Shown piece by piece: positions 38,516 through 62,221 of a stretch of 62,223 bases of DNA. Numbering within the stretch: the stretch's first letter is position 1; each line of letters opens with the position of its first letter. The stretch is from a virus. The translations under genes were made by a program, and so were the position numbers. The DNA lies in the IMG/VR virus record IMGVR_UViG_3300009507_002699, positions 1 to 62,223 of that record, one strand, 5' to 3'. The notes below the pieces were generated by a model. The model saw only the letters and a list, made by a program, of their open reading frames with translations. It ran no database searches and was not told where the DNA came from.

Positions 38516-38529
38516 ACGAGGAGATTTAA

Positions 38530-39519: not shown

Positions 39520-39855
39520 ATGGATCAGCGTCTAAAAAAAGCACTCGAACATGCAGATTATGTAACAACATTTAAGAATCAAAAACGTGTTCTACTAGAA
39601 AAATTTAATAAAGAATCTACAATATATTATGAAGGTGGGCAATATACTGCAACAAGAGAACTTATTGCAAGTATAAAGACTATTGACAGTCATATTTTTA
39701 TAGATAATAACAATATTCCTATCCGTATATTAAATAGAGGCGAATTCTACAATACTTTAATTGATGCGTATGAATCTGCATTAGAATCTTATAATAAAGA
39801 ATATCAAAAATTAGTAAAAAGTGAGCGTACTGTACAAGGAATTCTTGATGTCTAA
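39520..39855 (+). CDS. conserved hypothetical protein (111 aa)
   Basis: A 111-residue, mostly helical protein. It begins DQRLKKALEHADYVTTFKNQ and has YYEGGQYTATRELIASIKT and a helical C-terminus. Similar small proteins with the YYxGGQFTxTKELI pattern are, as I recall, widespread in T4-like cyanophages and have no known function. It is the first gene after the sigma70-type promoter and has a GGAG ribosome binding site 5 nt before the ATG. The next gene starts within its last codons. Function unknown; early expression is likely from the promoter. Confidence 0.7.
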   Translation: MDQRLKKALEHADYVTTFKNQKRVLLEKFNKESTIYYEGGQYTATRELIASIKTIDSHIFIDNNNIPIRILNRGEFYNTLIDAYESALESYNKEYQKLVKSERTVQGILDV

Positions 39856-45588: not shown

Positions 45589-45799
45589 ACTAACATTGAG
45601 GCAGTTGCAAACTGAAAGTGCTAGAGCATTAAGCACTATGGAAGCAACTAATAATAACATATATCAGTTTAACAAACAAGCACATCATAACAGTCAAAAT
45701 TGGTATGTTGCTGTAATTGATTGGTACGTAAATCAATATGGAGATTTACCTAGCCGTGCAGGTCCCGGCAAGGATATTAAATTGGTATACGATGTATAG
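45575..45799 (+). CDS. small conserved hypothetical protein (74 aa)
   Basis: A 74-residue protein from a TTG start at 45575, overlapping the end of the large repeat protein by 14 nt; GAGG about 10 nt upstream supports the start. It is helical at the N-terminus (LTLRQLQTESARALSTMEA) and has HHNSQNWYVAVIDWYVNQYG and a Gly/Pro-rich end. It lies immediately before the first radical SAM gene, whose ATG at 45792 is inside its last codons. A precursor-peptide role is conceivable from position alone. However, it lacks Cys and any core-like tail, so an ordinary small phage protein is more likely. Confidence 0.6.
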   Translation: MDISKLTLRQLQTESARALSTMEATNNNIYQFNKQAHHNSQNWYVAVIDWYVNQYGDLPSRAGPGKDIKLVYDV

Positions 45800-46874
45800 A
45801 TACGAAGACATAAGAGAAGTACATTTAGAAGTTACACAGAAATGCCAAGCGGCATGTCCTATGTGCGATCGTAATATGAATGGCGGCGCTGATAATCCGC
45901 ATATTACAAATGCTGAACTAAGTTTAGCAGATGCAAAACGTATGTTTAGTCCTGACTTTATTAAGCAATTAAATGTAATGTACATGTGTGGTAACTTGGG
46001 TGATCCTATTGTTGCAAAAGATACACTAGAAATATTTGAATATTTTAGAGAACACAATGATAAAATGTGGCTTAGTATGAATACAAATGCTGGAGCAAAA
46101 GATATCTACTGGTGGGCGAAACTTGCAGAAGTTATAGGGCGCAGAGGCGCAGTAATTTTTAGTGTTGACGGACTACGAGATACTAATCATCTATATAGAC
46201 AAAATGTAGTATGGGATAATGTAGAAAGAAATATGCAAGCGTTTATTGAAGCAGGCGGTAGAGCCCGATGGGACTTCTTAATTTTTGCACACAATGAACA
46301 TCAAGTTGAAGAAGCAGAAGCACTTGCTAATCAATGGGGGTGTGAAAAGTTTATTAAGAAAAAATCAGGTAGATTTATTACAAGTGATATTAAACCTAAA
46401 ACATCTCATCAAGCAGTAAACCGCAAAGGTGCAGAAACACAAAATTTAGCACAGCCTAAAGATGAAAAGAATAAAAATCTAGCATTACTAAAACAAAAAG
46501 AGATTGAAAAGTCTTATGGTAGTATGAAAGAGTATTTAGATAAGTGTTCAATAAATTGTAAAGTTGCAAAGCAAGGAAGTATCTTTGTAACAGCAGAAGG
46601 ACTTTTAATGCCATGTTGTTGGACTGCTGGACGTATGTACAAATGGTGGCATGAAGATCCGCGTGTAGAACAAGTATGGGATCATATCGATAATGCTGGT
46701 GGAAAGCAAGGCATAAGTATTATTGACAACGATATAAAATACGTAGTTAATGGAAGATTGATAGATAGTATTACTTCAAGTTGGCAAAAAGATAGTATTG
46801 CTAACGGTAAACTTGGTGTCTGCGCTCAAAAGTGTGGTAGTGAGTTTGATCCTTATGCGGAGCAGTTTAAATAA
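45792..46874 (+). CDS. radical SAM/SPASM-like protein, family A member 1
   Basis: A 360-residue radical SAM enzyme. Its AdoMet-cluster motif is CQAACPMC (Cys18, Cys22, Cys25). The family A signature follows: MCGNLGDPIV in place of GGEP, then SVDGLRDTNHLYRQNV and FAHNEHQVEE. The C-terminus has a Cys-rich auxiliary-cluster region (CSIN CKVA, LMPCCW, CAQKCG), consistent with a SPASM/twitch-type second Fe-S site. The ATG at 45792 is preferred to one at 45738 because paralogues start at the same distance before the cluster. These enzymes use a 5'-deoxyadenosyl radical to modify peptides, sugars or small molecules; the substrate is unknown. It abuts the next paralogue with no gap. Confidence 0.9.
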   Translation: MYRYEDIREVHLEVTQKCQAACPMCDRNMNGGADNPHITNAELSLADAKRMFSPDFIKQLNVMYMCGNLGDPIVAKDTLEIFEYFREHNDKMWLSMNTNAGAKDIYWWAKLAEVIGRRGAVIFSVDGLRDTNHLYRQNVVWDNVERNMQAFIEAGGRARWDFLIFAHNEHQVEEAEALANQWGCEKFIKKKSGRFITSDIKPKTSHQAVNRKGAETQNLAQPKDEKNKNLALLKQKEIEKSYGSMKEYLDKCSINCKVAKQGSIFVTAEGLLMPCCWTAGRMYKWWHEDPRVEQVWDHIDNAGGKQGISIIDNDIKYVVNGRLIDSITSSWQKDSIANGKLGVCAQKCGSEFDPYAEQFK

Positions 46875-47963
46875 ATGGATATTACACAGTTAAAAAAAGT
46901 AGAGTTAGAAATTACAAGTAATTGTAATGCGGCATGTCCAGGGTGTGCTAGAACAATAGCAGTTGCTAACGGTTCACTTGAGCCCCAAGGTGAAGATTTT
47001 ACACTTGATGATTTAAAAAGAATGTTTCCTCCTGGAAATTATACTGGTGTTGAATTTAAGTTCTGTGGAGTATTAGGTGACCCTGCAATACATCCGCAGT
47101 TTGCTGATATGTTAGAATACCTTTTAGAAAATGAAGGTATGTGTAGTATTAGTACTAATGGTGCTGTTGGCACAGCAGATATGTGGCGTAGATTAGGAGC
47201 ATTGTGCAAAAAATATCAAAAAAGATTTCATTTACACTGGTGTATAGACGGACACAAAGAAACTAATCATATCTATAGAGTAAACACAGTATGGAAGGTT
47301 CTTGAAAGAAATATGAATGCTTTTGTTGAAACTGTAGGCGAGTATACATATCGTGCAAAATGGGTGTATATTGTTTTTGATCACAATGAGCATGAAGTTG
47401 ACGCGGCTAGACAACACGCTGAACGTTTAGGATTTAATTTTGCAACTCGCACAGGAATGCGTAATAGTTTTCATCAATGGACTGCTCAAATTAAAAAGAA
47501 AGATCATGAAAAGAAAAAAGTTGTAACAACAACAAAGGTTATTACTACTACCGGCAAAAAAGAACACAGTAAGGTAGAACAAGTAAAAGAACTTGATAAG
47601 TTTATTGCTAACGAAAATAAAACAAAAGAAGAAACATTTAAAATTGTAAATTCAATACAATGCAAATATGTACATGAAGCAGAAATTTTTATAAGTGCTG
47701 ATCAAACCATGTGGCCTTGTTGCTTTCTTGCAGATTGGGGCAGAAAGAATAATGATAATATATTAGATAAACTTGCTGAATATGGTACTGGTTGGAATAG
47801 TCTTAAAGACAAAAGTGTTACTGAGATTATGCAACATCCTTGGTTTGAAAAAATTCTAGCAGATAGTTGGGATCCAAGTCATCCAAAACATTTAAAAAGA
47901 TGTATTAGAACTTGTGCGTATAACAAAGCCTATCATAACGAATTAATAGACGAGACAAAATGA
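46875..47963 (+). CDS. radical SAM/SPASM-like protein, family A member 2
   Basis: A 362-residue paralogue of the preceding gene. CNAACPGC (Cys17, Cys21, Cys24) binds the radical SAM cluster; FCGVLGDPAIHP, CIDGHKETNHIYRVNTVW and IVFDHNEHEVDAARQ follow. A Lys/Thr-rich linker near 205-235 (KKKVVTTTKVITTTGKK) separates the core from a Cys-rich end (IQCKYVHEAEI, MWPCCFLADW, LKRCIRTCAY) likely to hold an auxiliary Fe-S cluster. The start is immediately after the stop of member 1. It shares an ATGA overlap with the next gene. It clearly arose by duplication within the cluster and has since diverged. Confidence 0.9.
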   Translation: MDITQLKKVELEITSNCNAACPGCARTIAVANGSLEPQGEDFTLDDLKRMFPPGNYTGVEFKFCGVLGDPAIHPQFADMLEYLLENEGMCSISTNGAVGTADMWRRLGALCKKYQKRFHLHWCIDGHKETNHIYRVNTVWKVLERNMNAFVETVGEYTYRAKWVYIVFDHNEHEVDAARQHAERLGFNFATRTGMRNSFHQWTAQIKKKDHEKKKVVTTTKVITTTGKKEHSKVEQVKELDKFIANENKTKEETFKIVNSIQCKYVHEAEIFISADQTMWPCCFLADWGRKNNDNILDKLAEYGTGWNSLKDKSVTEIMQHPWFEKILADSWDPSHPKHLKRCIRTCAYNKAYHNELIDETK

Positions 47964-48916
47964 GTTGGTCTAGCGAAACATTAGAATGGATAGACATTGA
48001 ACTAACTAGTTTTTGTAATATCAAATGCAAAGGCTGTTTTCGTGTACTGTCAGATTACAAAGATGACATACTTAATAAAACATATCTTGACTTAGATACT
48101 ATAAAAGAAAAGTTCCAAAAAGATATGTTTCCAAATATGAAGATTATTAATTTTTGCGGTAGTGTAGACGAGCCATGTAGTCATCCTGAGTTTCATGAAA
48201 TTATTAAACACTTTGCTAGTTGGGGATGTCATATTAATGTTGCTACTAATGGAAGTTTACGCACTACAAGTTGGTGGGAAAAACTAGCAAAAGAATTAAC
48301 ATGTAGTCATAGAGTGACTTGGGGTATAGACGGAAGTGATGAACTATCAGAAGTATACAGAGAAGGTTCAAGTTTTAAAAAAGTACAACAAAATTATAGA
48401 GCATTTATTGCCGCCGGCGGACAAAGTGTTTGGCAATTTATTAGTTTTGAACATAACGAGCATCAATTAGAAACAGCAAAGCAAATGGCCAAAGACGAGG
48501 GCTTTAGAGACTTCAAAACTATTATTAGTCATCGTAAAGATACTAAAACTATTAAGCATAAAAAAGCAAAAGCAGATCCTAATCCTGGAGAACGTGCATG
48601 TATCAGTTGTAAGTATGCAAATCAAAAACGTATTTTTGTAAATCATATGGGTAATGTAATTCCTTGTTGTCATTTGAATAGTAAAATGTTAGAATTTCCT
48701 GTAAGTGGTAAACACAAAGATAGATTTGAAGATATACTTGTTGAAAATGATTATATGAATGATATCAATCTAAAAAATGTTACATTAGATCAAGCAATGA
48801 ATAGCAAAGTGTGGCAAAGAATAAAAGATAGTTGGACTGATGATGTGCGTATACCTAAATGCGAAAGCACCTGTGCGGAAAAAATACGAGATAAATTTCT
48901 TAAGGAGAAGTTATGA
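47960..48916 (+). CDS. radical SAM/SPASM-like protein, family A member 3
   Basis: A 318-residue radical SAM protein, the shortest of family A. The cluster motif is CNIKCKGC (Cys19, Cys23, Cys26). FCGSVDEPCSHPEFHEIIKH, GIDGSDELSEVYREGSSFKK and FISFEHNEHQLETAKQ mark the family. The C-terminus has CISCKYANQKRIFVNHMG, VIPCCHLN and CESTCAEK for a second cluster. It begins with an ATGA overlap and ends the same way into the PP-loop gene, which has a strong AAGGAG ribosome binding site. Likely acts with its paralogues on related substrates or successive positions. Confidence 0.9.
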   Translation: MSWSSETLEWIDIELTSFCNIKCKGCFRVLSDYKDDILNKTYLDLDTIKEKFQKDMFPNMKIINFCGSVDEPCSHPEFHEIIKHFASWGCHINVATNGSLRTTSWWEKLAKELTCSHRVTWGIDGSDELSEVYREGSSFKKVQQNYRAFIAAGGQSVWQFISFEHNEHQLETAKQMAKDEGFRDFKTIISHRKDTKTIKHKKAKADPNPGERACISCKYANQKRIFVNHMGNVIPCCHLNSKMLEFPVSGKHKDRFEDILVENDYMNDINLKNVTLDQAMNSKVWQRIKDSWTDDVRIPKCESTCAEKIRDKFLKEKL

Positions 48917-49572
48917 TTGTAAAAAACTCCCAGCAAGATATTATTATAGAAGAAGATGAAACAGTTAAAACTATAGGACTAAAAATTTCTGGTGGCGCCG
49001 ATAGTGCTATTGTTGCCTATATGTTATCAAAGTTTGTTGTAGAGGAACGTCCTCTTATTAAGATTTTGCCTATTACAACTACACTTGAAGAAAAACCATA
49101 TCAATTAAAATATGCCAAGCGTGTGGTAGAATTTTTAAAAAACAAGTTTGGCAATATATTTTTAGAACATCAAACTAATCATGCAGAGAACAGCACAGTA
49201 TATGTTTCAAAACAAGGTGAGTTAGTACAAGATTTAAGAACTACATACGATCTGAAAATTTTATATAGTGGTATTACTGCTAACCCACCTAAAGAAATAT
49301 ACAAACAATGGTTACCACACACAGGTCCTGTAGATAATAGAGATGGAAAAATATTTCCTACAATACGAGGAACTTCAAGGTTACCTTTAGTAAATATTGA
49401 TAAAAAAGGTGTTGCAGAACTTTATAATACACTAGGAGTTATGGATACATTATTTCCAATAACTCGTAGTTGTGAAGCATTAGCAAAAGATGAAGAGTAC
49501 CATATTGAAAAACATTGCGAAACATGTTGGTGGTGTCGAGAACGGTACTACGGATTTGGAAGATATAAATGA
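48913..49572 (+). CDS. QueC-like PP-loop ATP pyrophosphatase with zinc site (219 aa)
   Basis: A 219-residue N-type ATP pyrophosphatase. The PP-loop is SGGADS (residues 26-31) within IGLKISGGADSAIVAY. The C-terminus has Cys187, Cys202, Cys205 and Cys208 in a CETCWWCRER context. This has the layout of the zinc site of QueC, the enzyme that makes 7-cyano-7-deazaguanine by ATP-dependent amide/nitrile formation, but with a longer Cys187-Cys202 interval. Such enzymes adenylate a carboxylate or carbonyl for attack by ammonia or sulfur. No QueD, QueE or FolE homologue is in the window, so it probably activates another substrate for the radical SAM pathway. Coupled by ATGA overlaps on both sides. Confidence 0.83.
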   Translation: MIVKNSQQDIIIEEDETVKTIGLKISGGADSAIVAYMLSKFVVEERPLIKILPITTTLEEKPYQLKYAKRVVEFLKNKFGNIFLEHQTNHAENSTVYVSKQGELVQDLRTTYDLKILYSGITANPPKEIYKQWLPHTGPVDNRDGKIFPTIRGTSRLPLVNIDKKGVAELYNTLGVMDTLFPITRSCEALAKDEEYHIEKHCETCWWCRERYYGFGRYK

Positions 49573-50609: not shown

Positions 50610-50620
50610 GTAGTTATATA

Positions 50621-52036
50621 ATGACAGATAAAGCAAATAAATACCCCTCAGAAACGTTCTGCTTATTGCCTTGGGTACATCTAAGTACCCGTCCTGACGG
50701 TAGTATGCGAGTATGTTGTACAGCAAACGCAAGTAGCGTAGGTCCTACTAATGACAAAGAGCATGGCGGACAAGTTGGCATTTTAAAAGACGAACAAGGA
50801 AGACCTAACAACTTAAATGTTAGTGATTTTGAAACAGCATGGAATAGTACCTATATGCGTAATGTGCGTAAACAAATGCTTAACGGAGAACAACCTCCTA
50901 GTTGTATTAAGTGCTACAAAGAAGAAGCCGCAGGACATAATTCAAAGCGTATGTGGGAAACACACTATTGGAGCCAGCGTGTTGATCTAGATAAAATTAT
51001 TGCAGACACAAAAGCAGACGGCAGTGTTCCTCCGCAGTTAGCATATATTGATTTACGTTTTGGTACTAAGTGTCAACTTGCTTGTGTTATGTGTAGTCCA
51101 CATGATTCAAGTGGATGGATCAAAGACTACAAAGCAATTTTTCCAGCAGTACAGGATGAAAGTCTTAAAGAAACAATGCAATGGAAAGATAAAGGAAGTT
51201 TTAACGGCAGTAGTTACAATTGGCACAAACAAAATCCTACATTTTGGACACAGTTTTATGAACAGATGCCTAGTATGCAACAAATTTATTTTGCAGGCGG
51301 TGAAAGTCTTATTATTGAAGAACACTACGAAATACTTGAACATGCAATTAAAATGGGTTATGCTAAAGATTTAGAACTACGTTATAATTCAAATGGTGTT
51401 GAATGGCGTGAAGACCTGTTTGACTTATGGAAAGAATTTAAATTAGTACGTTTTCATTATTCAATAGACAGCATTAAAGAAATGAATGATTATATTCGTT
51501 ATCCTAGTACATGGAGTAGACAAGAAGAAGTATTCCACATACTTGATAATGACACACCTAACAACACAGAAGTTACAGTTGCATGTGCAGTGCAGGCTCT
51601 GAACATTTATTACTTACCAGACTTTATACAATGGAAATTAGAACAAAACTTTAAGAAAATTAATATGTGGCCATTTGGCGCAGGTGCTATTAACTATCAC
51701 TTTGTATACCATCCCCCGCATCTTAATGTTAAAATTTTACCTAAATGGTTTAAAGAAAAGTGTCGAGAAAAATACGAAGCATGGTATCCGTGGTGGGAAG
51801 CAAATTGGGAAAAGGGTGTTCCAAGTTGGCACAAAGGCAAAGTTGATTATGATACATGGCGTAATGCTAGTTATGGTATTAGCAGATTAAATGGTATGCT
51901 ACAGTTTATGGAAAGCGAAGACTGGAGCAGACGTTTACCCGAAATGAAAGAATTTTTAGATCTTTGTGATAAGCAACGTGGCATTACGTTTGCAGAAACG
52001 TTTCCAGAGATGAAGGACATATTTAATGATATCTAA
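50621..52036 (+). CDS. N-terminal-twitch radical SAM protein, family B member 1 (471 aa)
   Basis: The first of five proteins with an N-terminal twitch-type Fe-S domain ahead of the radical SAM domain. Cys14 lies in CLLPWVHLSTRPDGSMRVCC, with Cys32/Cys33, then CIKC at 95/98, forming the probable auxiliary cluster. The core motif is CQLACVMC (Cys151, Cys155, Cys158), followed by YFAGGESLIIEEHYEILEH. The pattern matches the group named twitch domain-containing radical SAM protein (N_twi_rSAM). The C-terminal third is Trp-rich and longer than in its paralogues. The start at 50621 follows an 11-nt gap; no good ribosome binding site is visible, and the next gene overlaps its 3' end. Confidence 0.9.
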   Translation: MTDKANKYPSETFCLLPWVHLSTRPDGSMRVCCTANASSVGPTNDKEHGGQVGILKDEQGRPNNLNVSDFETAWNSTYMRNVRKQMLNGEQPPSCIKCYKEEAAGHNSKRMWETHYWSQRVDLDKIIADTKADGSVPPQLAYIDLRFGTKCQLACVMCSPHDSSGWIKDYKAIFPAVQDESLKETMQWKDKGSFNGSSYNWHKQNPTFWTQFYEQMPSMQQIYFAGGESLIIEEHYEILEHAIKMGYAKDLELRYNSNGVEWREDLFDLWKEFKLVRFHYSIDSIKEMNDYIRYPSTWSRQEEVFHILDNDTPNNTEVTVACAVQALNIYYLPDFIQWKLEQNFKKINMWPFGAGAINYHFVYHPPHLNVKILPKWFKEKCREKYEAWYPWWEANWEKGVPSWHKGKVDYDTWRNASYGISRLNGMLQFMESEDWSRRLPEMKEFLDLCDKQRGITFAETFPEMKDIFNDI

Positions 52037-53201
52037 GACGTATTGTCCATTGTTGTATATGCATCAATTCATTTCGTCAACAGGATATCCTACACCTTGT
52101 TGCCACGGATATGAAGAGGGAAAATCAGCATGGGAATTGGCAAAGTTTGAAAAGGGCATTACAACAGGTAGATACAATGTTATGCGTGAACAAATGAAGC
52201 ACGGTCATTGGCCTAGTTTTTGTAATAAGTGCAAAATTCAAGAAGAAAGAGGTACTATAAGTCATAGACAAATAGCACTTGAAAGGTTTGGATACACAGA
52301 AGAAGTAAAAATCAAATATCTTGACATTGCATATAGCAATAAATGTAATCTTGCATGTAGAATGTGTAAGCCATCAGATAGTGATAAGTTAGAAGAATTA
52401 TATAGAGGTCAAAAAGAACGTCCATCATGGATTGCCGGTAATTATAGAGATACTAATTATTATTCAGAAGAAAAAGTAGAATGGACTAAGCATCTTATTA
52501 AAGACGGACTTGAATTATTAAAAGTTACAGGTGGAGAGCCTACGGCTTGCAAATATTTTATGGGATTAGTAGAATGGATGATTGATAATAATTATGCTAG
52601 TAACATGGAATTACAACTTACAACTAATGGAACAAAGTTTAATAAACCATTAATTGAAAAACTATTAAAATTTAAGAAGGTAAAACTATTATTAAGTATA
52701 GACGGTACAGGAAAAGTATACGATTATATAAGGCATCATGCTTCATGGGAAAAAACTTACAGTAATCTTAAACTATTAACAGAAGAAACACAGTTTCAAT
52801 TACAAGTTGCATTAGTCGCATCTTTTTATAATGTTACAAATATTTTAAGTTTAATTGAAGAATGTAAAAAAATAGGAATAAGTGTATATACTGACCAAGA
52901 TTTAAAGCCTGAAAATTCTGAAATATCTCCACTTAATATCGATAGTAACATTAGAAATATATTGATTAAGCAAGCAGATATACTAGAAAAAGAGTACAAT
53001 TCTAAATCTATAGTAGATTATCATGCTAGACAGAGTGCAAAAGCATTACGTAATATTGCAACAAGTAATCCAGTAGAACCTCAGCGGAAACTTAGATTGC
53101 TACAAACGATACAAATACAAGATAAATTATACAAAACTAACTACAAAGATTTCCTACAAAAAGAACAAATAGAATATTTAGAAGGAGTACATAATGGATA
53201 A
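52026..53201 (+). CDS. N-terminal-twitch radical SAM protein, family B member 2 (391 aa)
   Basis: A 391-residue twitch-type radical SAM protein. The N-terminal domain has YCPLLYMHQ (Cys7), PCC (Cys25/26) and CNKC (Cys66/69). The radical SAM motif is CNLACRMC (Cys107, Cys111, Cys114), followed by LKVTGGEPTACKYF and LLLSIDGTGKVYDYIRHHAS. The ATG at 52026 overlaps the previous stop. The C-terminal part is Lys-rich and helical without a clear extra Cys cluster, so the auxiliary cluster is N-terminal. It resembles the genes at 57650 and 61226. Substrate unknown. Confidence 0.9.
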   Translation: MISKTYCPLLYMHQFISSTGYPTPCCHGYEEGKSAWELAKFEKGITTGRYNVMREQMKHGHWPSFCNKCKIQEERGTISHRQIALERFGYTEEVKIKYLDIAYSNKCNLACRMCKPSDSDKLEELYRGQKERPSWIAGNYRDTNYYSEEKVEWTKHLIKDGLELLKVTGGEPTACKYFMGLVEWMIDNNYASNMELQLTTNGTKFNKPLIEKLLKFKKVKLLLSIDGTGKVYDYIRHHASWEKTYSNLKLLTEETQFQLQVALVASFYNVTNILSLIEECKKIGISVYTDQDLKPENSEISPLNIDSNIRNILIKQADILEKEYNSKSIVDYHARQSAKALRNIATSNPVEPQRKLRLLQTIQIQDKLYKTNYKDFLQKEQIEYLEGVHNG

Positions 53202-55692
53202 TCCAAAGTCTAAATTACCTTGTCATTATGCACATGGTGGAGTAAACTTTAAAAATGGATTTGCTACTACTTGTCCAATTAGTTCTGCTCACTTAGTTGA
53301 ACTAGGAGAGTTTGGCGGAGTACCAAGTGAGTTTTGGAATAGTAAAGGATTTAGAGAATATAGACAACAACTAGATAGAGGTGAATGGCCAGAACATTGT
53401 CATCTTTGTCAAAGTGCTGAAAAGGAAGGAACTAAAAGTATGCGTCATGATTATGAAGCAGATCTAACACATTATGATCCTGCGACAGGAGAAGTTGATT
53501 TTAACGGACTAAAACATGTAGAAATGAGGTTTAGTAATAGTTGTAATATGGCATGTTTGCATTGTAGTGAAGTATACAGTAGTCAATGGGGTAGTAGATT
53601 AAAGGACTATACTCCAGATCAAGATGATTGGGATCATAATTTAGAGCAATTACTAAAAACACAGCATAGAGAAGGACCGGATGATAATAAACAAATTAGA
53701 TTATCAAAAGCAGATGCATTAGCCATTGCAGATGATCTTAATAAAAACTTTCCTAATATTCAAAAAATTGATTTTGCAGGCGGCGAAGTATTATACCAAA
53801 AGCAATTCTTTCCGGTACTAGAGCGTTTGGCTCAACATCCTAATGCTAAAAACTTATATATATTCTTCCATAGTAATTTTAATGCACCATTTGATGTAAA
53901 CACACTTAATGATTTACTTAAACCTTTTAGGCAGACAAAGATTAAAATTAGTGTTGATGCAGGAACAAATATTTATAGTTACTTTAGAGACGGTGACTGG
54001 GATGTCTTAAAAAATAATCTTGCTAAGTTTAAAGAGATTAATAAAACAACCTACCTTGATGCAGTGTGTACAACTAGCATTTATCAAATCCTTGACTTAA
54101 AAAATATACTAGTATCGTTGGCTAGTTTAGATGTAAACGAAATATCAATGAGTACTGTGTTTACACCGAGATATATTAACCCAGCAGTTGCATATAGAAT
54201 GTTTGGGCAGGCTGTAATAAGTGATATACACGAAGCCGCTGATGCTTTAATGAGTATAAAGAAGAAACGCATGGCATCATCTAATAAAGAAAATTATAGA
54301 TCTTATATGCCTGAGTATAATGATTATGCTGATATTAGCGGATGTCTTAGAGATTTAGAACATATTAGAACTTATATTTTAAATCATCCTACAAAACAAA
54401 GCGATGTACAAGCGTTTTTATCATATGCTAATAAGATGGATAAATTATGGAAACAAAACTTCAATGATGTATTTCCAAGATGGATACTTACAAAAGATTC
54501 GTTATTAAGAAATAACAATATTGATTATAGCGGAGAGTTTCCATATAATAAGTGTGATATAAACCAAGAAATTAAAGATGTTATAACAAAATCACAAGAA
54601 GAAGGCAATATAGTTAGACCTCATTACCAAAAACTTTTAACTATGCCAATGCCAGAAGATGTAAGAGATGTTGAAGAAAGGCAATTAAAAGATTGGGCTG
54701 AAGAAATTTCTCAAGCGATAAAAGTACTACGATGGCATATGGGTACATCAGGGAAAGAAGAAATTGATAAGAAATTAGAACACCTTGAACATATGAAAAC
54801 TCGTCCAGAGTATAATGGGTGGGTACGGTATGAAAACTATCTTGCACAATCAAGAATTGCTGTAAAGTCAATCGAAGAAGAATTTTCGAAATGGGAATTT
54901 AATAAAGAACGAGTTGTAAAACTTGCTTTACACACAGCAGGCTTTCAACATTTTACACACGATAATTTAAATATTCCTTTCAATCCAGACTGGAAAAAAA
55001 TTGCTGTAAATGTAAGTGGCGGAGCAGATAGTTGTTTATTAACTTTCCTACTTTGTAAACACATTGAAGAAAACAATTTAGATTGTAAAGTTGATATAAT
55101 TACACATCAACGTGTATGGACAGTTCGTCCATGGGCAGGTCCTGTAAGTGTAGAAGTTTATAATAAGTTAAAAGAAAGATATCCTAATATTATTGGTAAT
55201 AGATTAACAAACTATATACCGCCTGAACTAGAACATAGTACACTAGGTAATATTGTAGAAGATAGAAGTGGCGATCAAATTATAGTTCAAAGTTATAATG
55301 ATTTTATTGCCGCACAAAACGATTACAATGCAGTGTTTAATGCAACAACAAAAAATCCTAGTATGGAAACTCCTACAGAAGATAGAATGAGAAATAGAGA
55401 CCACCAAGCGTTTGGATTAAATGAGTTTGTTTGTTTATATTTTAATTATTGGCAATGTATGCCGTTTATTGCTACAGAAAAAGACTGGGTAATTAAACAG
55501 TATAAAGATTTAGATATACTAGACTTTTACACTACTACACGTAGTTGTGAAGGTGATGGTAGAGACGGAGGACCATTGCTTGGCAAAGACTACTGGTGGT
55601 ACAAATATAATATGGATCAGCCTGTAGAAACTTGTGGTAAGTGTTTTTGGTGCGTAGAAAGAAAATGGGCGGAAGATCAGAATGAGTTTTGA
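53194..55692 (+). CDS. radical SAM - QueC-like PP-loop fusion protein (832 aa), family B member 3
   Basis: An 832-residue two-enzyme fusion. The N-terminal half is a twitch-type radical SAM protein: CHYAHGGVNFKNGFATTCP (Cys10, Cys27), CHLC (Cys69/72), the AdoMet motif CNMACLHC (Cys117, Cys121, Cys124) and IDFAGGEVLYQKQ. A helical, Lys/Glu-rich linker (about 440-590) leads to an ATP pyrophosphatase domain with VSGGADS (PP-loop about 607-613). A C-terminal zinc-type Cys set follows: Cys785 in TTRSCEGDGRDGG, then CGKCFWC at 814/817/820. This resembles the stand-alone PP-loop gene at 48913. The fusion implies that ATP-dependent activation and radical chemistry act on the same intermediate. Strong AAGGAG before the ATG; coupled to neighbours by overlaps. 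Confidence 0.9.
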   Translation: MDNPKSKLPCHYAHGGVNFKNGFATTCPISSAHLVELGEFGGVPSEFWNSKGFREYRQQLDRGEWPEHCHLCQSAEKEGTKSMRHDYEADLTHYDPATGEVDFNGLKHVEMRFSNSCNMACLHCSEVYSSQWGSRLKDYTPDQDDWDHNLEQLLKTQHREGPDDNKQIRLSKADALAIADDLNKNFPNIQKIDFAGGEVLYQKQFFPVLERLAQHPNAKNLYIFFHSNFNAPFDVNTLNDLLKPFRQTKIKISVDAGTNIYSYFRDGDWDVLKNNLAKFKEINKTTYLDAVCTTSIYQILDLKNILVSLASLDVNEISMSTVFTPRYINPAVAYRMFGQAVISDIHEAADALMSIKKKRMASSNKENYRSYMPEYNDYADISGCLRDLEHIRTYILNHPTKQSDVQAFLSYANKMDKLWKQNFNDVFPRWILTKDSLLRNNNIDYSGEFPYNKCDINQEIKDVITKSQEEGNIVRPHYQKLLTMPMPEDVRDVEERQLKDWAEEISQAIKVLRWHMGTSGKEEIDKKLEHLEHMKTRPEYNGWVRYENYLAQSRIAVKSIEEEFSKWEFNKERVVKLALHTAGFQHFTHDNLNIPFNPDWKKIAVNVSGGADSCLLTFLLCKHIEENNLDCKVDIITHQRVWTVRPWAGPVSVEVYNKLKERYPNIIGNRLTNYIPPELEHSTLGNIVEDRSGDQIIVQSYNDFIAAQNDYNAVFNATTKNPSMETPTEDRMRNRDHQAFGLNEFVCLYFNYWQCMPFIATEKDWVIKQYKDLDILDFYTTTRSCEGDGRDGGPLLGKDYWWYKYNMDQPVETCGKCFWCVERKWAEDQNEF

Positions 55693-56860
55693 TACATTAG
55701 ATTTAAAAACAGGCAACGTATTCCAAGTAACTTGGGATTTAGGCAGACGATGTAATTATGATTGTTCATACTGTCCGGTAACACGCCACGACAACTTTAG
55801 TCCACATGCTACGCTAGACGAACTAAAAGCAAATACAGATTTCTTGTATGAGTATATTGATACGTATATGCAACATCGTTCATACAAGCGTACTAGCATT
55901 GGTTTCACTGGCGGTGAGCCTACAGTAAACCCAAACTTTATTCCTTTTATGCAATATTTAAAAAGTGAATACGAAACCAAGTATCAAAGCAGATGGAGTG
56001 CAAACTTTGCACTTACAAGTAACGGTGCTATGGGACAAAAAATGGCACAAAAAGTAATGGAGAATTTTGCTCACATTACAGTAAGTTATCACGCCGAAAG
56101 TAATGAAAAACTAAAAAAACAAGTACGTGATAGAATATTACAATTTCACAAGGATGGTCCTGCACACAAAACAACAATGAGTATTAATGTTATGTTTCAT
56201 GCAGAACATTTTGATGAATGTAAAGAATTATGCGAATGGCTGGACGGGCATGAAATAAAGTATGTTCCGAGAGTCATTGGTGAAGAGCCTGATAGTAAAC
56301 CTAGTTTTGCACACAAGTACAATGATGAACAATTACAGTACATGCGAGATTTTTGGAAAAACAAAAATGCTAAACTAAACACTAAAAAGAAAAAAGAAGA
56401 AGAAGTTACTAAAGTACTAAGTGCGGCAGGAGAAAAAACTAGCGAAAAGAAAAAACTAGGACTTGTTGAAGGTCGCCCATGTTGCGGTAGTAGAGAAATG
56501 TGCTTGTCAAATAAGGGCGATAGTCGCAATGCTACCTTTGTAGACTTGCGTGAGTTTAAAGGTTGGCAATGTAGTGTTAACTTTTTCTTTTTACATTTAG
56601 AACAACAAACTGATCAAGTGTTCCATCATCAAACTTGTCAAGCACGGTTTGACGGTACTAGAGGACCAATAGGTAAAATAAGTGAAGGTAAACAAATTGT
56701 TGCAGATTTAGTCAAAAAGTTAGAAACAGATACAATGCCAACTATTACTTGCCCTAAACATGTTTGTGGTTGCGGATTATGTGCGCCTAAAAGTAAATTC
56801 CCAGAAAATTACAAAGAAGTTATGAAGAATCATTTAGTTCGTCCAGAGGTACTAGCATAA
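55682..56860 (+). CDS. radical SAM protein with C-terminal Cys cluster, family C member 1 (392 aa)
   Basis: A 392-residue radical SAM enzyme without N-terminal twitch. CNYDCSYC (Cys24, Cys28, Cys31) lies right after VTWDLGRR, and GFTGGEPTVNP carries the GGEP motif. The C-terminus has SREMCLSNKG, then a terminal CPKHVCGCGLC set likely to bind one or more auxiliary clusters. A Lys-rich linker (about 240-260) joins the domains. It resembles the gene at 58767 (LGRxCNYxCSYC, GGEPT), making a separate two-member family. It starts 11 nt inside the preceding fusion gene. The terminal layout recalls enzymes that modify peptides or glycans, but no specific match was recognised. Confidence 0.9.
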   Translation: MSFDTLDLKTGNVFQVTWDLGRRCNYDCSYCPVTRHDNFSPHATLDELKANTDFLYEYIDTYMQHRSYKRTSIGFTGGEPTVNPNFIPFMQYLKSEYETKYQSRWSANFALTSNGAMGQKMAQKVMENFAHITVSYHAESNEKLKKQVRDRILQFHKDGPAHKTTMSINVMFHAEHFDECKELCEWLDGHEIKYVPRVIGEEPDSKPSFAHKYNDEQLQYMRDFWKNKNAKLNTKKKKEEEVTKVLSAAGEKTSEKKKLGLVEGRPCCGSREMCLSNKGDSRNATFVDLREFKGWQCSVNFFFLHLEQQTDQVFHHQTCQARFDGTRGPIGKISEGKQIVADLVKKLETDTMPTITCPKHVCGCGLCAPKSKFPENYKEVMKNHLVRPEVLA

Positions 56861-57648
56861 TGAAGATAGGAATTTTTGGAGATAGTTTTGCAGATAATAA
56901 AACTGGTGGAGAACCAATTTATCAAGAAACATCATGGCCGTCATTATTATCAAATAAGTTTGATGTAACTAATTACAGCAAGGCCGGTAGTGGTTTAGAA
57001 TATTCTTTAGAACAAATTTTCCTTCATGCTGACAAATTTGATAAAATAATTTTTGTGTCAACTAGTCCTCAGAGAATGATGATAAATGAAGATCATCATC
57101 ATAAACTTATACAAGATGAAGAAGATGATATGACTTTATGGCATCATATCCGTCCTGTTGATCTGCGCGAACGAAAAGTCAATGGTAAAGAAGATAAATT
57201 TTATAATATGGCTTTAAAAGTTGCACAGCAATATAGTGACCTTTTTGTTAAAAACGATCACCTTGATATGAGAGTTGCACTAATATGGAAAGCACTAAAG
57301 GCTCACTACGGCGACAAACTTTTATTATTATATATGGCAGTGCCTGAAACTGGTGGATATATAGGACAAAAATTTTTAAGAAGATATAATATTTGGCCAG
57401 ATAATGAAATGAGTCTATACGATATAACGGATTATGAGAATCAACTCATTTTTGGAAAAAATCCTTATAATCCTGAGTATGATCGACGTTCGTGTCATAT
57501 AACGCACTGGCATCATAATATGTTATATGAAAAAATGCTCCGCTGGATTCATAGTGGTGAATTTAGTTTAACAGCCAAAGATTTAGTAGAAATTAAACTT
57601 GAAGAAATATTTGAAATGTACCATGGACCGTGGATTAAAAAAATATAA
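56860..57648 (+). CDS. SGNH/GDSL-type hydrolase (262 aa)
   Basis: A 262-residue SGNH-fold protein. IGIFGDSFADN (Asp8, Ser9) provides block I with the catalytic Ser. GSGLEYSLEQIF supplies the second-block Gly region. A C-terminal SCHITHWHHNMLYEKM holds the likely catalytic His. Such enzymes are esterases or acyltransferases that add or remove acetyl groups on glycans, lipids or small molecules. It has no signal peptide, so it acts in the cytoplasm. It overlaps the upstream radical SAM gene by one base (TAATG). A tailoring deacylase/acyltransferase in the same pathway is the simplest reading. Confidence 0.78.
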   Translation: MKIGIFGDSFADNKTGGEPIYQETSWPSLLSNKFDVTNYSKAGSGLEYSLEQIFLHADKFDKIIFVSTSPQRMMINEDHHHKLIQDEEDDMTLWHHIRPVDLRERKVNGKEDKFYNMALKVAQQYSDLFVKNDHLDMRVALIWKALKAHYGDKLLLLYMAVPETGGYIGQKFLRRYNIWPDNEMSLYDITDYENQLIFGKNPYNPEYDRRSCHITHWHHNMLYEKMLRWIHSGEFSLTAKDLVEIKLEEIFEMYHGPWIKKI

Positions 57649-57649
57649 T

Positions 57650-58747
57650 ATGGATAAATCTTTTAAATATGCCTGTCCGTTACCATTTAATCATATGGCT
57701 GTTAGACCCGACGGTAAAATATTACCATGTTGTGTTTTCAGATGGGACGATGTACCACAAGATTTAAATATTGATTACAAGGATCCTTTCAATCATCCTT
57801 TTATGAAAAATCTTAGGGACAAAATGTCTAAAGATGTTTATGTCGAAGGATGCAAAGAATGTTATCAAAAAGAAGAGTTTGGTAATCAAAGTTTTAGAAA
57901 ACTTGTACTAGACAAGCATCAAGAATTTGGTGCTACTAGTTTAGTAGAAGGAACACCACCAGAACTTACATATGTAGATTTGAGTATCAGTAATACTTGT
58001 AATAATAAATGTAGAATGTGTAATCCAGGCCTTAGTACATCTTGGTATAGTGATGCAAAGAAGTTAGGTATAGAAATTCCTAAAGGGATTATTAAAAATC
58101 CTTTTATTGAAAATACTGACTTTAGTAAATTAAAATTTATTAAATTGCTAGGCGGAGAACCGCTTATGGAACAAAAGGCTATTAAGAAAATTTTAAAACA
58201 ATGTGATCTTTCACAGTTGCATATTCAACTTATCACTAATGGTACAGTAATACCTGATGATGAACTAAAAGGTATGTTAGAACATGTTAAGCGACTAGAA
58301 GTAAAACTTAGTATAGATGCATACGGAAAACTAAACGACTTTTTACGCAGTGGTAGTAAATGGGAAACTGTTGAAAAAACAGTAGATTGGTTTAAAGGAT
58401 TTGTTAATAAAAAGTTTTTAAGTATCCACAGCGTAGCAAGTATATACAACATTAATAAGTTAGACGAAATGGTCGAATACGCAAAGTCAAAAGAAATTTA
58501 TCACGAATATGTACCACTTGATGATGTTGATTACATGCAAACAAAACATTTACCTTTAGAGGCTAAAAAATTGTTAGCAGAGAAAATAGCAAGTAAAAAT
58601 TATAAATTTGGTGTAAGTTTAATTTATGAGTTAGAACAGCACGGAGATATTAACATATTCTTAAAACAAGATGCTATCATGAACAGTTTACGTACAGAGC
58701 ACTGGAAAGATTATAATCCTGAATTATTTGAATTGACAAAACTATAA
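57650..58747 (+). CDS. N-terminal-twitch radical SAM protein, family B member 4 (365 aa)
   Basis: A 365-residue protein starting at the ATG 57650, one base after the SGNH gene. The N-terminal twitch domain has CPLPFNHMAVRPDGKILPCC (Cys9, Cys27, Cys28) and CKEC (Cys68/71). The AdoMet-cluster motif is CNNKCRMC (Cys117, Cys121, Cys124), followed by KLLGGEPLMEQKA and RLEVKLSIDAYGKL. An upstream TTG in frame (57599) would add residues with no family counterpart, so it was not used. It closely resembles the gene at 61226. The downstream gap holds a strong sigma70-type promoter. Confidence 0.9.
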   Translation: MDKSFKYACPLPFNHMAVRPDGKILPCCVFRWDDVPQDLNIDYKDPFNHPFMKNLRDKMSKDVYVEGCKECYQKEEFGNQSFRKLVLDKHQEFGATSLVEGTPPELTYVDLSISNTCNNKCRMCNPGLSTSWYSDAKKLGIEIPKGIIKNPFIENTDFSKLKFIKLLGGEPLMEQKAIKKILKQCDLSQLHIQLITNGTVIPDDELKGMLEHVKRLEVKLSIDAYGKLNDFLRSGSKWETVEKTVDWFKGFVNKKFLSIHSVASIYNINKLDEMVEYAKSKEIYHEYVPLDDVDYMQTKHLPLEAKKLLAEKIASKNYKFGVSLIYELEQHGDINIFLKQDAIMNSLRTEHWKDYNPELFELTKL

Positions 58748-58761
58748 AAGGGTGCTATAAT
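58733..58761 (+). promoter_or_regulatory. sigma70-type promoter within the radical SAM cluster
   Basis: TTGACA (58733-58738) and TATAAT (58756-58761) are separated by exactly 17 nt, a perfect consensus. The -10 box ends only 5 nt before the ATG at 58767. Transcription would therefore begin at or next to the start codon, giving a nearly leaderless message. This is the second sigma70-type start in the accessory block. Confidence 0.82.
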
Positions 58762-58766
58762 AAATT

Positions 58767-59879
58767 ATGAATGAAGATTTAAAATGGTCGAACTATGACT
58801 TTACTAAAATACCATTTGACGACATTGTCGCTGTGGGTCAACGTACTCTGCTTTATCGCGATCTATTTACTGTATCCTGGCTCTTGGGAAGATTCTGTAA
58901 CTACAGATGCTCCTACTGTTGGCCCTATGCACGTTCCGATCGTAAAGACCATAGACCTACCGAGTTATGCTTGCGAACAGTGGATGAAATCAAACGTCAA
59001 GCCAGAGACAACGGTTTTAACAGTTTCCACTTCTCCTTGTCGGGAGGAGAGCCTACTTTCCATCCTGGATACTTGGATATACTAAAACATCTTAGTGACG
59101 ATGTAGAAAATACAAATTACACAAGTGTACACATGACTAGTAATTGTAGTCGTCCAATGAAGTGGTTTGAAACATATGTTGAATATGCAAAGCCTTTTCA
59201 CAGAGCAAGTATAACAGCAAGTCTGCATACCGAACACGTAAATAGTAAAGAGAAGATGCAAGACTTTGCAGACAAGTTAATCTTCTGTCAGGAGCATGAT
59301 GTACAAGTTACAATTAATCAAGTTATGGTACCAGAATGGTTTGAACGTGATTGGGAAAATGCATTATTCTTTCACGAACAAGGTATCAACGTTACTCTTA
59401 AACCACAATCAGACCCTACTGCTTCTAGAGTTGTTGATGGGTACAAAGAAGAAGATCTTAAGAAACTCTACAACGGAATGCCACAACGGGCGTACACAGA
59501 AAGCAAACGTAAATGGGCAAGTCGACCAAAACCGTCTTTCCAAGTACCTCAAGGAGTAGAGGGTAAAATGGATACTAGTATACCTTGGCATATGCAAGTT
59601 GAAATGGAAGACTCTAAAGGCAATAAGTACTATATGGACCAAGCAGAACGGTTTAATGCCTTTAATTTCAATAATTTCGAAGGATGGCGGTGTAATGCCG
59701 GTTACAGCGGACTTATAATACGCGAGCCAGACGGTTCGGTAAAAAGGAGTTATTCGTGTCACGATGCGCCACTAGGCAACATCGAAACAGGTTTCGAACT
59801 GTTTAAGACACCTAAAACTTGTATTACAAAAAGTTGTGTAAGTTCTGCTGATAGTAAAATTCCAAAAAGGAAAGTGTAA
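58767..59879 (+). CDS. radical SAM protein, family C member 2 (370 aa)
   Basis: A 370-residue radical SAM enzyme. CNYRCSYC (Cys44, Cys48, Cys51) follows FTVSWLLGRF, and FHFSLSGGEPTFHP carries GGEP. C-terminal SYSCHDAPLG and CITKSC provide fewer extra cysteines than family C member 1. The first about 300 bases of the gene are richer in G+C than neighbouring genes (about 44 percent by hand count of 58801-59100; about 35 percent in a later line at 59161). Codons such as CTC, TCC and GGG are frequent there. It has its own consensus promoter. Its stop overlaps the nitroreductase start (TAATG). Confidence 0.9.
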   Translation: MNEDLKWSNYDFTKIPFDDIVAVGQRTLLYRDLFTVSWLLGRFCNYRCSYCWPYARSDRKDHRPTELCLRTVDEIKRQARDNGFNSFHFSLSGGEPTFHPGYLDILKHLSDDVENTNYTSVHMTSNCSRPMKWFETYVEYAKPFHRASITASLHTEHVNSKEKMQDFADKLIFCQEHDVQVTINQVMVPEWFERDWENALFFHEQGINVTLKPQSDPTASRVVDGYKEEDLKKLYNGMPQRAYTESKRKWASRPKPSFQVPQGVEGKMDTSIPWHMQVEMEDSKGNKYYMDQAERFNAFNFNNFEGWRCNAGYSGLIIREPDGSVKRSYSCHDAPLGNIETGFELFKTPKTCITKSCVSSADSKIPKRKV

Positions 59880-60535
59880 TGGAATATAAGGAACTTATTG
59901 AAACCCGTCAGAATCATTTTACATGGGACTATTCAAAAGAAGTTCCTAAAGAAGATATAGTAGAAGTATTTGAAGAAGTATATTTAAATGTGCCTACAAA
60001 AAATCTTATGTATCCCTATGAAGTTACTTTATATAAAAATAGTGATCTGGAAAAGCGCAAAGAAATTATGTCTGTTTGTCATAGGAATATGGATCATGAT
60101 ATAGAAAGAGATCGAGGAAACCCCCAAGTATTAGCACCTTGGCTTGTAGGTATCGGCCAACGTAATGTAGTAGATTTAGAAACTAGATATGATCCTGTGT
60201 ATAGGCGTCCTGTTCCTTGGGTTGATAGAATGGATGCTTTTGAAGCAGGTATATTGTCAACATATATTATGCTCGGTTTACAAAATCGTGGATACAATAC
60301 AGGAATAAGTCAAAACTGTTGTAATGATCCTCAACGAACTGCTGAACTTATAAATGCTAGTATGCCTACTATATTTCTTATAGGTATTGGGTACGGAACA
60401 AATGATGAAACATATTTAGATCCAAGAACTGACACAATTAAGCAAGTACCATTTACTATAGATGTAGTTAGACCAAGTAGAGAACGTAAGAAAACAGAAG
60501 GCACCCCAAGTTTTACAGATGTATTCAAACTATGA
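59879..60535 (+). CDS. nitroreductase-family flavoprotein (218 aa)
   Basis: A 218-residue protein with the nitroreductase fold signatures. YKELIETRQNHFTWD is the N-terminal FMN-phosphate Arg region. EVYLNVPTKNLMYPYEVTLY is the dimer/strand segment. EAGILSTYIMLGLQNRGYNTG is the central helix and FLIGIGYG the FMN-site strand. Members are NAD(P)H-FMN oxidoreductases that reduce nitro or quinone groups or catalyse oxidative dehydrogenation in tailoring pathways, for example in peptide natural products. In this context a redox tailoring step, or supply of electrons to the radical SAM enzymes, is plausible. Coupled to its neighbours by one-base and four-base overlaps. Confidence 0.78.
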   Translation: MEYKELIETRQNHFTWDYSKEVPKEDIVEVFEEVYLNVPTKNLMYPYEVTLYKNSDLEKRKEIMSVCHRNMDHDIERDRGNPQVLAPWLVGIGQRNVVDLETRYDPVYRRPVPWVDRMDAFEAGILSTYIMLGLQNRGYNTGISQNCCNDPQRTAELINASMPTIFLIGIGYGTNDETYLDPRTDTIKQVPFTIDVVRPSRERKKTEGTPSFTDVFKL

Positions 60536-61242
60536 GAACACAAGAACAAATAACAGCAATCAAGAATACACAAAGTGATCCTAAGCAACATTGGGATATT
60601 TTAAACTACGGAAATATTATGGATCTGTTAACACACTATAATGATTCTAGTAAAAAAGTAGAACAAAAAACTACAGGACCTAAAGTACTTTATGTTAAAG
60701 AAGGTGAAGGTGTAATAGATGATATTTTACAAAAACTAAGAAAAATTTACGGAGAGTTTGGAGTACGTTCTGCACATTATTTTGATGTAACTAAACCACA
60801 CATAATACACAATGATGACGACTTTGATTATCCGCAGTGTTACAAAGCATTTGTAATACCATTACTTGTAGAAGGTACTACATGTGACAAAGCAAAGTTT
60901 TTTGTATTTGATCAAAGTTACTACGGCGGTCCTGCAAAGTTTGTTAACGGCGAAGATGTAACAGGTAAGCCGGTACACTATAATACATTTTTAACAGATT
61001 ATAAAGATGTAGAAGACAAAGCAATTTGTGGATTAGATGATTTTGAATTACAACACCTTACACATCTCAAATCCAAATGGCTAGAAGGTTTAAGTGTTAA
61101 CAAGTATTTTGATTGGCGCATTGGAAGCGTTATATCTTTTGATAGTCTAAATTTACATTGTTCGAGTGACTTTAATGCATCGGGTATTACACGCAAAATT
61201 GGACTCAGTATTTTTACAGAGAAATATGATGCCGCAGTGTAA
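60532..61242 (+). CDS. probable 2-oxoglutarate/Fe(II)-dependent oxygenase (236 aa)
   Basis: A 236-residue protein that fits the double-stranded beta-helix oxygenase pattern. His93 and Asp95 lie in IIHNDDDFDYP after SAHYFDVTKPH. FVIPLLVEG and FFVFDQSYYGG form strands. SVISFDSLNLHCSS gives the distal His209, and ITRKIGLSIF places Arg221 twelve residues later, the usual position of the 2-oxoglutarate-binding Arg. It resembles phytanoyl-CoA hydroxylase-like proteins. Likely reaction: hydroxylation or oxidation of the same product as the radical SAM enzymes. It shares an ATGA overlap with the nitroreductase. Assignment rests on motif spacing and is less certain than the radical SAM calls. Confidence 0.68.
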   Translation: MRTQEQITAIKNTQSDPKQHWDILNYGNIMDLLTHYNDSSKKVEQKTTGPKVLYVKEGEGVIDDILQKLRKIYGEFGVRSAHYFDVTKPHIIHNDDDFDYPQCYKAFVIPLLVEGTTCDKAKFFVFDQSYYGGPAKFVNGEDVTGKPVHYNTFLTDYKDVEDKAICGLDDFELQHLTHLKSKWLEGLSVNKYFDWRIGSVISFDSLNLHCSSDFNASGITRKIGLSIFTEKYDAAV

Positions 61243-62221
61243 TGCTTTAAAAAATCATTTGTGTATAAGTGTAGATGGAAACTTTCTACCTTGCTGTCGT
61301 TATAGTAAAAATGATCAAAGGTTTCATGTAAATGATTACACATTTGATGAATATCGCAACACAGATTTTTATAATAACATTATATCTAATATGGAAAGCG
61401 GTTGGGATGAAGGTTGTCTAAAATGTAAAAAAGAAGAAGACATGGCCACTAAGTCTAGTATGCGGCAACGACTAAACAAAGACTTTAGTGGTAGCAATAT
61501 AGAGTTTATTGAAATTAGTATTAGTAATAAATGTAATATCACTTGTAGAATGTGTGGTCCTAAGTTTAGTAGTAAGTGGGCTGAAATAGATAATGTTGAA
61601 GTAGAAAAACAAAACTATAGCACTTTGTTAGACACTATAGATTTCTCTACTGTAAAGCGTATAAAATATTTAGGCGGAGAACCGTTTATTACTCCAGAGT
61701 TTAAAGAACTTATAGACAGGGTTACTAATAAGGAAAATGTTGATTTACAAGTAAACACTAATGCAACATTTTTTCCAAATAAGTACATAAACGAATTAGC
61801 AAAATTCAAAAATATGTATGTTGCTTTGAGTATAGATGGTATAGGCAAAGTTGACGAATACATTAGACAAGGCACTGATTGGAATAAAAAATTATCTGTA
61901 ATCAAACAATGGCTAGATACAGACTTTACATTGTACATCCATACAGTTGTTCAAGCATACAACATACACGATATAAAGAATATAAAAGCATTTGCAGACG
62001 AAAATAATTTACATTGGTCTCCTGCTGTGATTGATTCTCCTAAAGAATTTCAATTACATGCACTTGATAAAGATTATGTTGACCAGATTAAAGACGATGA
62101 TAATGCAGTGTTTTTAAATACGATAAGTAGTTATAGTGAAGATCTTAATAAAAAGTTCAAATCAACTACTGAACGATTAGATAAATTGTTTGATACAAAG
62201 TGGGAAGACATTGTTAAATGA
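61226..62221 (+). CDS. N-terminal-twitch radical SAM protein, family B member 5 (331 aa)
   Basis: A 331-residue protein. CISVDGNFLPCC (Cys13, Cys23, Cys24) and CLKC (Cys64/67) make up the N-terminal twitch cluster. CNITCRMC (Cys103, Cys107, Cys110) is the AdoMet motif. Then come YLGGEPFITPEFKELIDR and ALSIDGIGKVDEYIRQGTDW. It resembles the gene at 57650. The start is ATG 61226 or the adjacent 61229; the upstream in-frame alternative at 61166 adds residues lacking in paralogues and lies well inside the oxygenase gene. It overlaps that gene by 17 nt. Its TGA (62219-62221) overlaps an ATG at 62218, presumably the start of a further gene beyond the window. Confidence 0.9.
   Translation: MMPQCNALKNHLCISVDGNFLPCCRYSKNDQRFHVNDYTFDEYRNTDFYNNIISNMESGWDEGCLKCKKEEDMATKSSMRQRLNKDFSGSNIEFIEISISNKCNITCRMCGPKFSSKWAEIDNVEVEKQNYSTLLDTIDFSTVKRIKYLGGEPFITPEFKELIDRVTNKENVDLQVNTNATFFPNKYINELAKFKNMYVALSIDGIGKVDEYIRQGTDWNKKLSVIKQWLDTDFTLYIHTVVQAYNIHDIKNIKAFADENNLHWSPAVIDSPKEFQLHALDKDYVDQIKDDDNAVFLNTISSYSEDLNKKFKSTTERLDKLFDTKWEDIVK

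Follow-up and report, generated by a model that had tools for sequence, protein, structure and literature searches.

A phage island of radical SAM genes with a constant ordered core and interchangeable cassettes

Why would a phage carry eleven radical S-adenosylmethionine (SAM) genes side by side? The question is raised by positions 45792-62221 of the 62,223-base IMG/VR virus record IMGVR_UViG_3300009507_002699, the whole of which was analysed here and is called the window. A sequence-only reading had proposed that these genes serve one dedicated pathway in a T4-like phage, and had implied that this pathway needs all eleven. From the comparison with related sequences, the island is built on a constant ordered core, composed of a glycosyltransferase (GT), a methyltransferase (MT)-like protein, a small protein of 74 amino acids (aa) named u74, and the radical SAM proteins A1, B1 and C2. 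The eleven are not a fixed requirement, three radical SAM genes being constant and the rest residing in interchangeable modules; co-occurrence in a fixed order supports the proposal of one pathway, and the part of it requiring eleven enzymes has to be given up.

The presence of the eleven genes themselves was borne out. The Pfam model PF04055 gave exactly eleven domains at positions 45828 to 61993, with zero internal stops; nine of the genes passed the curated cut-off of 29.5 bits, and the other two scored 26.9 and 24.6 bits. The CX3CX2C cluster motif was found in 11/11 genes and is kept in 980 of 1005 radical SAM homologues, and the extra cysteine sets that had been noticed in nearly all of them are present and, in A1, B1 and C2, conserved across the aligned relatives. 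These sets follow the pattern Cys...CC...CX3C at the C-terminus of the A type and C-X17-CC...CXXC at the N-terminus of B1, B2 and B4 (B5 is similar and B3 lacks the CC), and the C type carries extra cysteines at the C-terminus. The sorting by eye into three families also holds: all five B genes, to which an N-terminal twitch domain had been ascribed, scored 204-416 bits with NF033640 ('twitch domain-containing radical SAM', cut-off 170 bits), A and C genes score below this cut-off, phrog_21308 is the best match common to all four A genes, and phrog_13987/1802 are the matches common to C1 and C2. The structure model of C2 was poor (predicted local distance difference test, pLDDT, 57.6). The start positions of the island genes are unchanged from the earlier listing, and the described linkage by overlapping start and stop codons was seen again, with gene-to-gene gaps of -17 to +19 bases, so that one transcription unit is plausible. 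The core occupies the following positions.

41941..45588, + strand: core GT with 23-aa repeats and an MT-like C-terminal domain in a single open reading frame (ORF); predicted GT-A fold, and synteny of GT (family f6) then MT (family f4) in relatives
45575..45799, + strand: core u74, 74 aa, no cysteine, overlapping the A1 start; conserved in IMG/VR
45792..46874, + strand: core radical SAM A1 with SPASM-like C-terminal cysteines; PF04055 and alignment
50621..52036, + strand: core radical SAM B1 with N-terminal twitch; NF033640, 416 bits
58767..59879, + strand: core radical SAM C2, the most conserved island gene; PF04055, 53 bits, and alignment

Co-occurrence of these genes was assayed in more than 140 IMG/VR contigs, from which ~3,000 ORFs were clustered and 1,054 ORFs were assigned as radical SAM by our own profile. 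Single-gene queries of IMG/VR yielded 121 relatives for C2 (80 kept, 76-96% identical), 174 for B1, 480 stretches for u74 and at least 593 for the GT. In these related contigs, where the sequence-only reading had proposed to look for the same gene set, B1, A1, C2, the GT and the MT-like gene were found together in a fixed order, forming a syntenic frame of GT, MT-like gene, A1, B1 and C2 with variable genes between them. In all loci holding both B1 and C2, C2 lay downstream on the same strand (91/91); B1 loci with full flanks contained A1 in 42/45 and C2 in 34/45 cases; and the distances of B1 and C2 are correlated (rho 0.45, 0/500 permutations).

The earlier gene list proved incomplete at the upstream side, where u74 and the link to the repeat-bearing GT/MT protein had been missed. 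The 41941-45588 protein consists of GT domain(s), some twelve repeats of 23 aa (~residues 690-1000) and a C-terminal MT-like domain, and relatives carry GT and MT as separate genes. An AlphaFold model and Foldseek assigned the GT to the GT-A fold, the matches including both glycan enzymes and the peptide S-glycosyltransferases ThuS and SunS. The C-terminal domain is presumably a Rossmann methyltransferase; Pfam returned no match for it, and PDB profile searches were uninformative for both the GT and the MT family. The number of 23-aa repeats varies between phages, and their role as a modified core peptide was considered and rejected, as the repeats are missing from some relatives, both in phages and in bacteria. 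The u74 protein was found by a scan for conserved short ORFs and displays a mean column identity of 71%; it has no cysteine, is conserved over its entire length and matched no family. In 67/80 contigs it lies no more than 1.5 kb upstream of A1, most commonly overlapping it by 4 bases. Loci fetched independently by u74, with flanks of 6 kb, contained radical SAM genes in 76/77 and the MT in 77/77 cases, and A1 in 46/46 of those with full flanks; counts of C2 and B1 were left out here, such flanks being too short and the C2 score cut too strict. Isolate phages lack u74, and hundreds of uncultured phage contigs carry it.

Just ahead of A1, which it often overlaps by 4 bases, u74 occupies the classical position of a precursor, and this brings in a serious alternative, namely modification of a peptide or protein in the manner of ribosomally synthesized and post-translationally modified peptides (RiPPs). 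Here u74 or, for example, a tail fibre would be the substrate, which the radical SAM enzymes, AspH-type oxygenases and PP-loop proteins would modify and to which the GT would add a sugar. What makes it serious, besides u74, is that SPASM/twitch domains are typical of peptide maturases, that several AspH-type oxygenases occur, and that the PP-loop profile matches Cap9; the GT matches to ThuS and SunS fit it too, along with those to glycan enzymes. Cap9 conjugates a nucleobase to protein (PMC11996544, PMC13329287). However, u74 is uniformly conserved and cysteine-free, and does not show the conserved leader and variable core of a RiPP precursor beside its maturase; the enzymes vary and u74 stays constant; the 23-aa repeats are missing in some members; and u74 was found in only three phage-like contigs of the bacterial set, the core-bearing loci of Bdellovibrionota having yielded none. 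A search for another precursor among small ORFs was likewise negative, only u74 being widely conserved and the other frequent families being mostly antisense reading frames. We consider a peptide or protein substrate rather unlikely, though it ranks next after a glycan or glycoconjugate.

The bacterial loci carry the same core on chromosomes. Scanning GTDB genomes with B1 gave 25 loci, mostly in metagenome-assembled genomes (MAGs) of Bdellovibrionota and several on contigs of 100-937 kb, in which B1, A1 and C2 are usually neighbours and relatives of the GT and MT are common. A whole-genome check located C2 in 9/9 genomes tested. Among 192 Bdellovibrionota genomes, B1 occurs in 11, C2 in 12 and both in 11, usually adjacent (Fisher estimate ~5e-17, not corrected for genome kinship); 11 genomes contain a close relative of A1 (E < 1e-120) and 12 contain the GT, B1 also being present in 10 and 9 of these, respectively. 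The three radical SAM genes lie within a few kilobases of one another in most of these genomes, and six of the compared loci also have plain GT2 glycosyltransferase genes next to the bacterial core. Because the phage and bacterial copies of the core are only ~45-68% identical, this clustering constitutes the strongest evidence for a single pathway, and we hold it highly probable that the core forms one linked pathway.

The remaining features of the island and its 5′ edge are as follows.

37577..39468, + strand: two paralogous genes of family f32, probably the tail-fibre region, at the island's 5′ edge after the tail genes; family in 14 contigs
39848..41448, + strand: two putative glycosyltransferase genes (39848-40645 and 40642-41448); families f22 and f16, conserved beside the island
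46875..47963, + strand: radical SAM A2; PF04055, family in 46 contigs
47960..48916, + strand: radical SAM A3; PF04055, family in 33 contigs
48913..49572, + strand: PP-loop ATPase with QueC-like CX2CX2C zinc-site motif; PF06508, 24.2 bits
49569..50609, + strand: radical SAM A4; PF04055 and PHROG match
52026..53201, + strand: radical SAM B2 with N-terminal twitch; NF033640, 227 bits
53194..55692, + strand: radical SAM B3 fused to a C-terminal PP-loop domain, PPL2; NF033640, 211 bits, PP-loop matches weak (~residues 602-639)
55682..56860, + strand: radical SAM C1; PF04055, 42.5 bits, family in 61 contigs
56860..57648, + strand: possible SGNH-like hydrolase, unconfirmed; GDSF motif only, no Pfam match
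57650..58747, + strand: radical SAM B4 with N-terminal twitch; NF033640, 241 bits, travels with B3
59879..60535, + strand: nitroreductase-like; PF00881 below threshold
60532..61242, + strand: putative 2-oxoglutarate (2OG)-Fe(II) oxygenase; HxD...H pattern in family f21, no Pfam match
61226..62221, + strand: radical SAM B5 with N-terminal twitch, at the contig end; NF033640, 204 bits

The sole Pfam match of the second glycosyltransferase-like gene (40642-41448) is weak (Mannosyl_trans3, E=0.024). As the contig terminates 2 bases past the B5 stop codon, the island is cut at its 3′ side. In the nearest relative, L204, the genes beyond B5 encode a desaturase, a TauD-type oxygenase, two AspH-type oxygenases above the Pfam cut-off, a GNAT-like protein and more oxygenase-like proteins, followed by a probable tail-fibre gene. 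The row of desaturase and oxygenase-like genes at 4997-10297 of L204 is unusual, as oxygenases here accumulate next to Fe-S enzymes that are sensitive to oxygen. Among the tail genes of the window, an ORF of 4,939 aa (16739-31558) is very large for a phage structural protein.

Across the sampled contigs, 160 radical SAM families were distinguished, and each long contig holds 6-22 radical SAM genes. The stretch between B1 and C2, measured in the 57 dereplicated islands that have both, is 2.6-11.4 kb long and ranges from near-empty, with B1 beside C2, to many genes. The cassettes between the core genes encode radical SAM enzymes, PP-loop enzymes, Asp/Asn-hydroxylase-type oxygenases, nitroreductases, ligases, B12-binding radical SAM enzymes, AMP-binding proteins and, read by eye, aminotransferase-like proteins; in L011, a nitroreductase-type gene different from that of the window scored above the cut-off. 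An AMP-binding (adenylating) enzyme-like gene at 12166-12864 of L079 encodes only 232 aa, and its family is found in the loci of 11 contigs.

Several cassettes travel together. PPL2, the second PP-loop family and a separate gene in relatives, occurs with C1 in 19/19 and with A2 in 15/19 islands, in line with the expected co-occurrence of PP-loop and radical SAM genes; B4 is accompanied by B3 in 11/12 and A2 by C1 in 23/24 islands. Others exclude each other, r5 and A3 (24 and 18 islands) as well as C1 and AT18 (33 and 9) being found together in 0 cases. The distance matrices of C1 and A2 correlate at 0.57, and r5 displays no correlation with C2 or B1. The fixed core, the co-travelling and mutually excluding cassettes and the distance correlations thus indicate a fixed core plus alternative modules, with recombination, and modular tailoring by the cassettes is likely. 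Such wide exchange, with 160 radical SAM families and several distance correlations near zero, would also be expected if there were no pathway and independent auxiliary genes had merely gathered in a hypervariable island. That explanation, already disfavoured, has to contend with a core order fixed in 91/91 loci, with cassettes that strictly pair or exclude one another, and with the clustering of this core on bacterial chromosomes, and we regard it as very improbable.

The PP-loop genes bear on yet another product. The free-standing one at 48913 carries the motifs SGGADS and C-X14-CX2CX2C; its PF06508 match (cut-off 22 bits) involves the C-terminal part alone, TIGR00364 scored far below its cut-off, and PDB profile matches were to a TtuA-like thiolase, Cap9 and NadE. 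QueC-like PP-loops, together with partial matches of C1, C2, A3 and B5 to prokaryotic viperin models, would suit hypermodification of a nucleoside, nucleotide or DNA, or a viperin-like antiviral nucleotide used against competitors. Yet the viperin matches cover the radical SAM core only and lie far below the cut-off (~43 bits against 180), the island shows no recognisable homologue of QueD, QueE or FolE and only weak QueE-type PHROG matches, and a different substrate is suggested by the constant GT and by the occurrence of the core on bacterial chromosomes; a nucleotide product is accordingly quite improbable. Two specific identities were rejected: prokaryotic viperin (pVip, NF038283), with a best, partial match of ~44 bits against a 180-bit whole-protein cut-off, and the queuosine/7-deazaguanine pathway, the QueC similarity being only partial and no partners being recognised.

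As an explanation of the whole, we favour, at an even chance, a phage-encoded modular island for biosynthesis or decoration. The core (GT-A glycosyltransferase, MT-like protein, u74, A1, B1 and C2) would build or modify one common scaffold, and the cassettes would tailor it differently in each phage by means of SPASM/twitch and B12-binding radical SAM enzymes, PP-loop proteins acting as ATP-dependent ligases or amidases, 2OG oxygenases of the Asp/Asn-hydroxylase and TauD types, nitroreductases, and aminotransferase-like and AMP-ligase-like proteins. The presumed single product may sit on the fibres of the phage or on the envelope of the host that it infects, and may be diversified like O-antigen loci to change receptor recognition. 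That it is a surface glycan or glycoconjugate, the likeliest product, to which we give slightly less than an even chance, is suggested by the constant glycosyltransferase, the GT2 genes beside the bacterial core, the location in the tail-fibre region and the diversification by cassette exchange. Glycosyltransferases, as looked for in a surface polysaccharide locus, are present in the GT-A fold of f6 and the GT2 genes beside the bacterial core, and a UDP-sugar-dehydrogenase-like family (f51, read by eye) occurs in 10 contigs. Several observations weigh against this proposal: some phages are without B1 or A1 in the flanks examined; full co-inheritance of the cassettes is weak by the distance matrices; the GT-A Foldseek matches have low template modeling scores (0.2-0.35); a search, which was not exhaustive, identified no complete nucleotide-sugar pathway, flippase or polymerase; and SPASM/twitch radical SAM, PP-loop and AspH-type enzymes are at least equally typical of peptide or protein modification.

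If the modular-island proposal is true, an abundant uncultured marine phage clade spends tens of kilobases on radical chemistry that has evolved combinatorially, with radical SAM sets unlike those of matched isolate phages and a large reservoir of new radical SAM reactions, and complex molecules are made by phages at the scale of bacterial gene clusters. Tentatively, the island might represent a new class of virus-encoded natural-product-like pathway, in which a new molecule made by the core and diversified by cassettes is shared by a jumbo-phage clade and Bdellovibrionota. The bacterial core of GT, B1, C2 and A1 offers a tractable minimal version for finding the product.

Which phages carry the island? 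The T4-like label needs refining, since T4 and cyanomyophages are not the nearest relatives of the backbone genes. For the SbcC-like and gp6-like proteins, the best matches (~34-49% identity) are in the jumbo myophages PA5oct/MIJ3/Paride, Phosso, Atu_ph07 and SCTP-2, and a Tevenvirinae/cyanomyovirus placement was rejected on the basis of these nearest isolate relatives. The same baseplate gene is present in 22/24 long island-bearing relatives (84-382 kb), at 54-92% identity in 21 of the 22 and 30-41% in the remaining one, which indicates that the island characterizes an uncultured jumbo-like clade and that the window is a fragment. Identities of B1 (82-96%) and C2 (76-98%) in the fetched relatives are mostly above that of the baseplate protein. 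Five contigs filed under MAGs of Neisseriaceae, Rickettsiales, Gammaproteobacteria, Chloroflexi and Acidimicrobiaceae (L179, L191, L192, L196 and L198) resemble the phage island and could be phage contigs that were binned wrongly. When five core proteins were searched against 50,697 isolate phage records, no close relative was found, which explains why the core has gone unstudied; the cultured Pelagibacter phage Mosig gave a 23% partial match to A1 only.

How, then, does the island compare with known systems? Phages rich in radical SAM genes have precedents. As many as 12 radical SAM genes, plus Fe-S genes, had been reported in the 183-kb genome TARA_ERS488813_N000010 of a marine T4-like virus (Nishimura et al., 2017; PMC5332604), and radical SAM genes are prevalent in Tasman Sea phage samples (PMC7150976). 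That genome, compared by description only, likewise holds many radical SAM genes, but its report tied their number to Fe-S metabolism and does not describe a core, a modular organisation, a small protein or a counterpart in bacteria. Pelagimyophages possess a hypervariable host-recognition island with glycosyltransferases and radical SAM cassettes, read as serving host-surface modification (PMC7029224); it resembles the present island in its place among tail-fibre genes and in the radical SAM cassettes by which MAGV3 and MAGV16 differ (PMC7029224), whereas these phages are related to cyanomyophages and the present core is not described for them. O-antigen and capsule loci and phage seroconversion genes share the glycosyltransferase, the constant frame with alternative cassettes and the tail-region location; unlike them, the island is dominated by radical SAM chemistry, and no flippase or polymerase was identified in the non-exhaustive search. 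At the level of single families, NF033640 (N_Twi_rSAM) takes in all five B genes, with the A and C genes outside, and has no assigned reaction. The PP-loop gene shares SGGADS and the C...CX2CX2C site with the QueC family, including Cap9 and QatC, but its matches are partial and low-scoring and no defence-system partners accompany it; PADLOC gave no match for the free-standing gene. In the open literature, most subscription papers not being searchable, nothing was found that describes the core or its modular build, u74, or the counterpart in bacteria, and there is a substantial chance that the pathway as such represents a new kind.

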